Origin: Baffinella frigidus
Lineage: Eukaryota > Cryptophyceae > Cryptomonadales > Baffinellaceae
Reading direction: 5' to 3'
Length of the DNA: 34,588 nucleotides
Assembly: GCA_026770585.1 (NCBI GenBank)
Contig: MU646409.1
Coordinates: forward strand, 772,049-806,636
Under the pieces are notes generated by a model. That model saw nothing but the letters and a program-made list of their open reading frames with translations. It was not told the origin of the DNA and made no database searches. Positions 25,758 through 34,479 of the stretch are shown here, in pieces; position 1 is the stretch's first letter, and the number at the start of each line of letters is the position of its first letter. A program made the translations under genes and the position numbers.

Positions 25758-28700
25758 CGATGATGGCTCTTCGCGGCTGGCGCCGGAACTAGGAGAGGCA
25801 GCGGAGGGTGCCAGGGTGCGAGCCAGGAGCAGGTGCGAGGGTTTCGGGCGTGGACTTTGGAGGGATGCGGTCCCTGCGACGGGTGGTGGCAGCGCTGCTG
25901 CTGGTGGGGCTCGCGGCCACCGGGGGCAGGGCCACGGAGGTGACTTCACCGTAGGCAGCGGCGCCAGCGTCCGCATCGAGGGGCTCACGCTGGCTGGCGG
26001 CGCGGCTGCTGGGGGGAACCAGAGCGAGGGCGGCTGCCTGCTGGCCTCGGGCGATGGCGCGGCGCTAGCGGTGGCCGACTGCGTGTTCACGAATTGCAGC
26101 GCAGCGACGCGGGGGGGCGCTATCGCGGTTCGGGAGGGCGCGCAGCTCGACATCGCCCGATCCAACCTCACGCGCAACAGCGCCGGGCTGGGCGGAGGCG
26201 CGATCTACGCCACTGGCGCTGTGGTTGTGTTGAGCGAGGTGGTGGCGCGTCTGAACAGCGCCGCGGATGCGGGAGGAGCGATGAAGGCATCAGCAAGCAA
26301 TGTGTCTCTCTTCGCCGTTCGCTTCGAGAACAACGAAGCCACCTTCTCTGGTGGTGCCATCGATATCACTGGGTCTCACTCACGCCCTACACCCTACATC
26401 TGACGCCTTAAACCCGAAGGGAGTTGTCTCGCAGGTGCGTAGACGCGCCTGGCTGGACCTTACTCTTTACCCCTGTGGACCGCCCCCAGACGGTTCTTTC
26501 GAGACAGACTATGGAAGGGCGAGGTTTCTACATATGGCGGGATCGAATGTCTGAATATTACGTGATCGAGAATGAATCGTAACGGTGCTTGGTGGTGTCG
26601 GTGGCAGAGGGGATCTGGAGGTGCGCGATTCGGTGCTCAACAGCAACACCGTGCAAAAGGCTGTGTCTAACTATCGGGGGGGGGGCGCCATCTGCGCGGA
26701 GGGGACTCCCATCAGGTCCTTTCCGGTCCTTTGGGGTTTGAAAACTTTCACGATAGGCGGACACTGGGACTTACCTGCAGGATGGCCCTGTTTTTTTTCA
26801 AGCATCGGGCCTCTCGGTGCTGAGGAACTCAGCAGACACTGGCTGCAGGGTGATCCTCAATTGGGCGCATCAGTTACCCCAGAGAGGAGCTCACTCCCCC
26901 CCCCGCAGCTGACGGGTGGTGCTCCATGGATCAGGGTCTTCGGGCGCTCGGAGCTGTCTCACAACCGCATTGCCGAGGAGAGGACATCAGGTTTCGGGTT
27001 TCGGGTTTCGGGTTTCGGATTTCGGGTTTCGGGTTTCGGATTTCGGGTTTGGGGTGCGGGTTCATGTTTGGAGCGGGGCAGAGCCCGTTTGGTGATCCTG
27101 GGTTTAGGGTTTAGAGTTGGGAGGAAGAAGCGTGATGACATAGTCGATCTAACGGCCCGAGTGTGCGGAGATAGACTGGGACAAGCCTTGACCAACGCGG
27201 TCTCCGTGCTCGAAGAAGAGACTCTCAGGCGGGTGCCCCATGGCTTGGTTGCTGCGCAGGCACCTCCGCCGGAGGGGCGGTGATCCTCAACACCGACGCC
27301 ACGCTCCTCCTGCAGGGCCCGGTATGCTTGTCTCCCTCCTCTCGTCACCCTCGTTGTCACCCTCGTTGGGACCCTCCATTTCATCTCCTGTGCGCCGCAG
27401 ATGGCCATTCCGGGAACCGGGCAGGGTTTACGGGTTAGGGATTAGGGGTTATTAGGGGTTAGGGGTTAGGGGTTAGGGGTTAGGGTTTGGGGTTTGGGGT
27501 CGGTCGGGTTTGATGGACCCCCACCGCGGCATGACCTTCCCGCCGCGCAGGGCGTTGCTATTCCATTCAGAAATCACCGATCACTTCAGAACCACTCACC
27601 ACCTTACATCAACGAACCGCCCCCCGCCCCCGAAGCGTCCGTGATTGTCGATGCTTGGCCAAGCCTCCATATTGCAAGGCCTCAGGACTCTGAGGCACCC
27701 CCCTTGGTACTTGGTTGGTTGGTTGGTTGGTGAGACGTGACTAGGATTACGGTTTAAGGCTAGTGCAGCACCGTGTATAGTTATGCACATTGGTGCCCTA
27801 GGGGGAGGTGCAACAGACAGCCAAGGCCTTGACACGTGTCGACCCGTCAGGTGGAGATGTCGCGAAATCGAGCGCGCTCGGGCGGGGCTGTGTACGCCCG
27901 TCAAGGCGGCCAAGTCGAGGTCAACGCTACAACCCACACCCTACACTCTCCAACCCTGGACCCTAAAACCTAAACCTTACTCCCTAAATCCTAAACTCTC
28001 GAACCCTAAACCCTACACCCCAAACCCTAAACCCTAAACCCTAAACCCTAAAATCTCGAAACCTGCACCCTAAAATCTCGAAACCTACACCTCAAACACT
28101 GAACCCTAAACCCTACACCATACACCCTACACCCTACACCCTACACCCTACACCCTACATCCTACACCATACACCCTACACCCTACACCCGACACCCTAC
28201 ACCCTATACCCTACACCCGACACCCTACACCCTACACCCTACACCCTACACCCTACACCCTACACCCTACACCCTGAACTCGCGAAACATAAACCCTACA
28301 CCCTACACCCTACAACCTAAACCCTGAAAGGCGAAACCTGAAGCAGGTGACGGGGGGGGTGGTGATGGAGGGGAACTACGCCTACTGCTGCGGCGGCGCG
28401 GTACCAGCGCCTGCTCTGCCGGAACCCGAAACCCCAAACCTTGAGCCCTCAGCCCTGCACCCTGCACCCTACACCCTACACCCTACACCCTACACCCTAC
28501 ACACCAAACCTGAAGCCCTCAACTCTCAACCCTAAACCCTAAACCCTGATCCCGGATTTCTAAACCCTAAACCCTAAACCATGAACCGTAAACCCAACCC
28601 CTCAACCCTAAACCCTACACCCTTCACCGCAAATTCCAAACCCTAAACCCTAAACCCTAAACCCTAAACCCTAAACCCTAAACCCTAAACCATAACCCCA

Positions 28701-34479: not shown

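Follow-up and report, generated by a model that had tools for sequence, protein, structure and literature searches.

Repeats of the Pmp type are best known from intronless bacterial genes, and the chlamydial Pmp autotransporters carry a C-terminal beta-barrel as the translocator. Zambounis, in 2012, reportedly described arrays of exons encoding leucine-rich repeats (LRRs) in the ROCO genes of brown algae. In these genes each LRR corresponds to one 72-bp exon in phase 2, splice variants and positively selected sites being reported as well (PMC11378527, in excerpt), and an algal gene for an ice-binding beta-helix protein consists of 12 exons (PMC4838330, also in excerpt). The frame-safe arrangement of one repeat per exon is already described for other repeat proteins. 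Among the matches listed, no title or abstract described coil exons in beta-helices or Pmp repeats in algae. The present study concerns a gene on the plus strand, with parts at 25865–34479 of a 34,588-nt stretch of the contig MU646409.1 from Baffinella frigidus (hereafter the window), all the splice sites of this gene being inferred from the genomic sequence alone.

The explanation that we favour as the probable one is a gene from an alga of cryptophyte type, encoding a right-handed beta-helix of the secreted type that is built of Pmp repeats, and having phase-0 introns at the coil boundaries, the array being old and diverged and the copy itself probably decayed or mis-assembled. The coil-boundary phase-0 introns in this algal Pmp-type beta-helix gene are a real, non-random pattern. 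The repeat would read FxxN ... GGA[ILVM] and cover 27–29 residues, i.e. one coil, with Gly-Gly-Ala (GGA) forming the turn that leads into the first strand of the following coil; the downstream introns, lying in phase 0 and mostly at that turn, would leave four coils with one exon each. Such introns would allow the array to gain or lose a coil of this kind in evolution with both the frame and the helix register intact. Judging from the family, the product would probably act in an adhesin-like way, as a long rod outside the cell or on its surface. The intron positions follow the structural repeat of a beta-helix in a repeat-protein gene, and the old problem of the joint growth of repeats and introns would become testable within one gene family. 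The parts of the gene are as follows:

25865..25942, plus strand: signal-peptide-like start MRSLRRVVAALLLVGLAATGGRATEV, recognized by eye (the ATG at 25865 was checked), in a frame differing from that of the beta-helix downstream
25942..26372, plus strand: beta-helix exon of several coils, in which five GGA motifs are left unspliced; its donor, ATC ACT GG/GT (a slash marking the splice border), was inferred by hand, and P0007 diverges there too
27260..27321, plus strand: upstream exon TSAGGAVILNTDATLLLQGP with an unspliced GGAV (motif at 27271), starting inside a codon and ending in phase 0 (hand reading); the GGA spacing to the next coil is 27 when joined
27851..27919, plus strand: array exon of 23 residues, comprising the tail of one coil, with a GGA left unspliced at 27881, and the first 10 residues of coil c1
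27920..28346, plus strand: mid-coil intron of CCCTAAA-like repeat (from the count of exact repeat 7-mers)
28347..28400, plus strand: array exon with the remainder of coil c1, 18 residues, GGA end
29653..29739, plus strand: one-coil exon c2, 29 residues, GGA end
30226..30309, plus strand: one-coil exon c3, 28 residues, GGA end
30759..30842, plus strand: one-coil exon c4, 28 residues, GGA end
31243..31284, plus strand: first half of coil c5, 14 residues, with the donor AAC/GTAAAC, not at GGA
31285..31587, plus strand: mid-coil intron of CCCTAAA-like repeat (from the count of exact repeat 7-mers)
31588..31629, plus strand: second half of coil c5, 14 residues, GGA end
33482..33568, plus strand: one-coil exon c6, 29 residues, GGA end
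34378..34479, plus strand: exon c7, 34 residues, ending Gly-Ala-Gly (GAG)/GTA; no further exon is seen in the remaining 109 nt up to the window end (34588)

Six of the array exons, i.e. 28347–28400, 29653–29739, 30226–30309, 30759–30842, 31588–31629 and 33482–33568, lie behind a CAG acceptor and end in phase 0 at the Gly-Gly-Ala border GGN GGN GCG/GTR, the first Gly codon being GGC or GGA and the donor GTA or GTG. A first-pass annotation of the window had assigned Gly-Gly-Ala ends to exactly these six exons, and both the reading of the sequence and a script agree with it, as they do for the exon 34378–34479, said to end after GAG, where the end is GGC GCC GGG/GTA (Gly-Ala-Gly), also in phase 0. 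The nine array exons from 27851 on have lengths of 69, 54, 87, 84, 84, 42, 42, 87 and 102 nt, all of them multiples of three, and the phase 0 at both ends that had been claimed is present in all nine; upstream of 27851 the phases appear mixed (hand reading). All nine exons are open and flanked by GT..AG sites, and the third-position GC is 0.70 or more in eight of them.

A scan for the border, with the pattern YAG, 13–36 open codons and GGNGGNGCN/GTR, returned 8 candidates in the region 25868–34588, whereas 500 dinucleotide shuffles of the same region gave 0.006 on average and never more than 1, a result that rules out a chance origin of the GGA borders. In the whole window there were 10 candidates on the plus strand (mean 0.21 and maximum 2 in 100 shuffles) and 0 on the minus strand. 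Six of the eight candidates are exons of the first-pass annotation, the remaining two, ending at 27279 and 27889, not being borders in the gene model; the latter indicates that an alternative donor, GGA/GTGTAC at 27889, is possible in the exon 27851–27919. Under uniform placement over the 84 codon-phase slots of a coil, the probability of finding six or more of the nine introns in one slot is about 2e-8, and some cause is therefore needed, be it copying together with the coils or a position at the turn where introns are preferred or tolerated.

When joined, the nine array exons yield 217 residues with GGA intervals of 28, 29, 28, 28, 28 and 29, and the addition of the upstream exon 27260–27321 gives a first interval of 27. 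Since this regular spacing needs the tail of 27851–27919 together with 28347–28400, and 31243–31284 together with 31588–31629, two coils out of seven, c1 and c5, are split, and the exons 28347 (18 residues) and 31588 (14 residues) are partial coils, not whole ones. It had been proposed that each single-coil exon could be skipped without harm to frame or register. By computation, the frame is kept on skipping any one array exon, and the GGA spacing of 27–29 survives the removal of 29653, 30226, 30759 or 33482, or of 31243 plus 31588 as a pair, so the proposal holds for these; it does not hold for the split coil 27851/28347, where the spacing becomes 32 without 27851, 39 without 28347 and 43 without both, nor for 31243 or 31588 skipped alone (14 and 43, respectively). 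The spacing was computed for the eight array exons that precede 34378, the last in the window. If an exon-shuffled array is defined by one repeat per exon and a uniform phase, phase 0 is found in nine of the nine exons and partial coils in four of the nine; the array is modular in principle but, as it stands, old and imperfect.

With regard to the protein family, the beta-helix repeat recognized in the first-pass annotation is supported by profile matches of the joined array and the upstream exon and by a structural model of the latter. The joined array matches PF02415, the chlamydial Pmp repeat, with 47.5 bits (cut-off 20.6, E 9e-13), and the upstream exon matches TIGR01376 with 40.4 bits (cut-off 15), the score of the upstream exon alone against PF02415 being 17.5 bits, under the cut-off of 20.6. 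The AlphaFold2 (AF2) model of 25918–26388 is a predicted beta-helix with a pLDDT of 88.8 and a pTM of 0.86. A Foldseek search of the PDB had no hits with an E of 0.001 or lower; Rhombotarget A (PDB 9cdu/9cdv) has the fold in common, the present results having no bearing on its gene structure or role. The likeness to the chlamydial Pmp repeat (PF02415/TIGR01376) lies, above the cut-offs, in a repeat of GGA[ILVM] and FxxN type that makes one coil of the beta-helix; the FxxN, which we take to be part of the Pmp motif, is by eye exact in three of the seven array coils. Unlike the chlamydial Pmp genes, the locus has putative introns, most of them at the GGA turn, and no autotransporter barrel is seen in the window, which ends 109 nt past the last exon. 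With the brown algal ROCO LRR arrays it shares the presence of several exons that each encode one structural repeat, a single phase and a proposed modular diversity; it differs from them in being a beta-helix instead of an LRR, in exons of 42–102 nt and phase 0, in having partial repeats in four of nine exons, and in being known only at the genomic level.

The array used as a query matched four proteins, all of them with PF02415, at 28–32% identity. With the upstream exon as a query the identities were 84% for P0005 (over 69% of the query), 76% for P0006, 63% for P0007 and 38% for P0008, and a profile of these four matched 43 proteins among 7994 candidates scored, three of them bearing organism names: P0009 from Baffinella frigidus and, much weaker, P0025 and P0039 from bacterial metagenome-assembled genomes (MAGs). 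The loci L001–L012 in bacterial MAGs encode, according to titles and the match table, relatives of the cap-plus-coil region at 27–42% identity; scans of IMG/VR revealed no relatives. The closest organism-named relative is P0009, which shares 60% identity with P0005 and about 50% with the window; Baffinella being a cryptophyte, this one named protein points to a cryptophyte as the source. Cymbomonas, considered before as the source, was given up once P0009 had been identified, and the excerpts of PMC10675990 and PMC5741210 contain nothing on telomeres, TTTAGGG or Pmp. The draft genome of Baffinella CCMP2293 is given as 534.5 Mb with 53.9% GC and 41.1% repeats (PMC9756366, in excerpt). P0009, annotated as 'pectin lyase fold/virulence factor, partial', has the same N-terminal cap and a coil repeat with a period of 26–27, but unlike the window array it exhibits a two-coil periodicity, the coils two apart being 54–81% identical and the neighbours 29–44%. 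Its sequence breaks off precisely at a GGA, perhaps the end of an exon that has this border too. P0007 lacks 26 residues, i.e. one coil, inside a contiguous frame. In the relatives the coil number changes in ways other than the duplication of exon–intron units, with one coil missing within the frame (P0007) or with a two-coil unit (P0009).

It is the 5′ end in which the window copy departs from its relatives. In tblastn, residues 98–211 of P0006 match 25942–26286 in frame +1 (E 8e-43), and residues 2–34 match 25817–25942 in frame +2 with 57% identity, at an E of only 0.063, abutting the frame +1 match. At 25942, 63 residues of the N-terminal cap are thus absent in comparison with P0006, and the frame is changed at the same point. 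The missing 63-residue segment gave no tblastn match above chance elsewhere in the window (E 2 or worse). The cap (the DC.G.GRH region) stands in frame before the coils in all 13 rows of the alignment of P0005–P0017, the window copy being without it. Given the missing cap and the frame change, this member of the family has probably decayed or been mis-assembled and, its 5′ end being broken in comparison with the relatives, it may yield no secreted protein.

Several points weigh against the explanation favoured above. GGA is left unspliced five times in the upstream exon and also at 27271 and 27881 of the same gene, so the GGA border is a preference, not a law; two of the nine array donors (27919 and 31284) are located mid-coil; the match to the signal peptide is weak when taken alone (E 0.063, with one of four queries); and the mean alignment score of the coils within the array is 27.6, compared with 20.7 against the 26 coils of P0001–P0004 and 16.6 against the coils further upstream in the same gene (four coils, two of them cut one residue off), the mean within the P0001–P0004 coils being 44.5. 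The scores suggest some common history inside the array and little with the upstream exon. If the copy were a pseudogene or an assembly artefact, decayed or collapsed, the exon structure would be a mere relic; the 63 missing residues and the frame change at 25942 make this a serious possibility, although one that stays short of probable; against it stand the open frames and GT..AG sites of all nine array exons and their third-position GC, which is high in eight. We regard as improbable the suggestion of the first-pass annotation that the locus is a diversity generator, in which the coil exons would be alternatively spliced or recombined to give helices differing in length and surface, as proposed for the brown algal ROCO LRR exons. 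The nine symmetric 0-0 exons, the survival of frame and spacing on skipping four of them or the pair 31243 and 31588, and the precedent of the 72-bp phase-2 LRR exons with splice variants in the Ectocarpus ROCO genes (PMC11378527, in excerpt) speak in its favour, but four of the nine exons hold only part of a coil, one of the split coils cannot be skipped cleanly, the 5′ end is broken in the window copy and the coils are only 21–48% identical. As a diversity generator the locus would matter more, if true; here that role is a guess.

The probable Pmp-type beta-helix gene leaves two origins for the common border: a coil-boundary intron might have been copied with the coils long ago or gained there repeatedly. 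The growth of the array by duplication of an exon–intron unit had been suggested earlier, yet no recent series of this kind is seen, because the seven array coils are only 21–48% identical in pairs (21 pairs), the third positions of the GGA exons, with the shared GGA codons excluded, agree in 112 of 225 cases where 100.2 are expected by shuffling, and the likeness of introns is found only with telomere-like repeats. Closely similar exon copies, taken here as the sign of ongoing duplication, were not found among those 21 pairs at the amino acid level. Compared over their final 54 nt, the six GGA exons have 20–34 positions in common. Of 36 pairs of introns, 6 are alike at their 5′ ends and 1 at the 3′ ends (z above 3 in comparison with mononucleotide shuffles), and the 5′-end likeness is confined to the introns 27920, 28401, 30843 and 31285, all of which carry the CCCTAAA-like repeat. 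An old exon–intron duplication series may still stand behind the array. The alternative, a repeated independent gain of introns at the GGA-turn codons instead of copying of the unit, appears rather unlikely. It would agree with the restriction of intron-end likeness to introns with telomere-like repeats, with third positions scarcely above expectation, with the occurrence of relatives in bacterial contigs and with the codon GCG, which ends six of six spliced GGA motifs versus three of five unspliced ones in the upstream exon, pointing to a site preference or to selection for G before GT. Old duplications, however, would likewise have erased the intron similarity, and the exons past the GGA border begin with ATG, GTT, TTG, ATT, ATT and ATA, without a common downstream half-site. 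A proto-splice site G/GTN is not supported, since only one of the six exons after a GGA border begins with GTN.

The two introns that split the coils c1 and c5 consist, nearly from end to end, of telomere-like repeat. Over 25868–34588 a CCCTAAA model scores 1100, the best of 19 other heptamers of the same composition reaching 423 and the rest at most 193. The intron 27920–28346 contains 56 exact repeat 7-mers (mean 1.86, maximum 10) and the intron 31285–31587 contains 102 (mean 1.26, maximum 9; 200 shuffles each). The repeat extends from 3 nt past the donor to 8 nt short of the acceptor in the former and from 0 nt past the donor to 2 nt short of the acceptor in the latter. We relied on the exact 7-mer counts because a loose repeat alignment, which covers both introns to 0.99, also covers their shuffled versions to 0.80 and 0.69, respectively (two shuffles each); a one-mismatch distance measure is lenient as well, matching even the array-free introns 30310 and 33569. 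None of the six coil-boundary introns is repeat from end to end: 28401–29652 has a long repeat array lying 22 and 180 nt from the splice sites, 31630–33481 has one at 113 and 155 nt, 30843–31242 opens with a short repeat array, and the introns 29740, 30310 and 33569 have zero exact 7-mers. End-to-end repeat introns thus make up two of the three mid-coil introns (27322, 27920 and 31285) versus none of the six GGA introns (hand Fisher p 0.083), so that a link between end-to-end repeat and mid-coil position is suggestive, a lead only given so few introns.

The donor GTAAAC is one base from the CTAAAC of the repeat, and four CCCTAAA units followed by CAGGTG within 30 nt gave 0 matches in the window. 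It is conceivable, although we consider it unlikely, that telomere-type repeats have been the raw material for new spliceosomal introns in the cryptophyte lineage, the introns 27920 and 31285 having been inserted into one-coil exons of greater age and having become spliceable through a few changes. If so, the coil array would act as a clock, with old introns at GGA and new ones mid-coil, and, if these introns are really new, a source of intron gain would be named. No mention of telomere-repeat introns in cryptophytes occurs in the excerpts of PMC12747079, PMC12220804 and PMC8226300, and none were described in titles or abstracts among the matches listed. The ends of P0006 and P0007 run into residues that telomere-like DNA would encode, as read from the protein letters. 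Further CCCTAAA-type arrays are present at 20325–23905 (G strand) and from 34492 on, and a repeat at 16032–17073 is flanked by a GT (16028) and an AG (17075), a likely intron beside an LRR-type gene.

As far as the rest of the window is concerned, scans for tRNAs and Rfam families found none. A run of 32 C at 29824–29855 and a run of 22 G at 1–22 are possible trouble spots of sequencing or assembly. Upstream of the beta-helix gene, a 209-bp unit is repeated in tandem at 24727–25125, with more copies by eye to about 25700. The LRR-type gene corresponds to a gene-like stretch with leucine-rich repeats at 8400–17090 on the plus strand, in which 9014–9403 resembles LRR_4 (E 0.005) and LRR_9 (E 0.01), both under the cut-off, and which may encode a protein similar to those of the AIR9 type.
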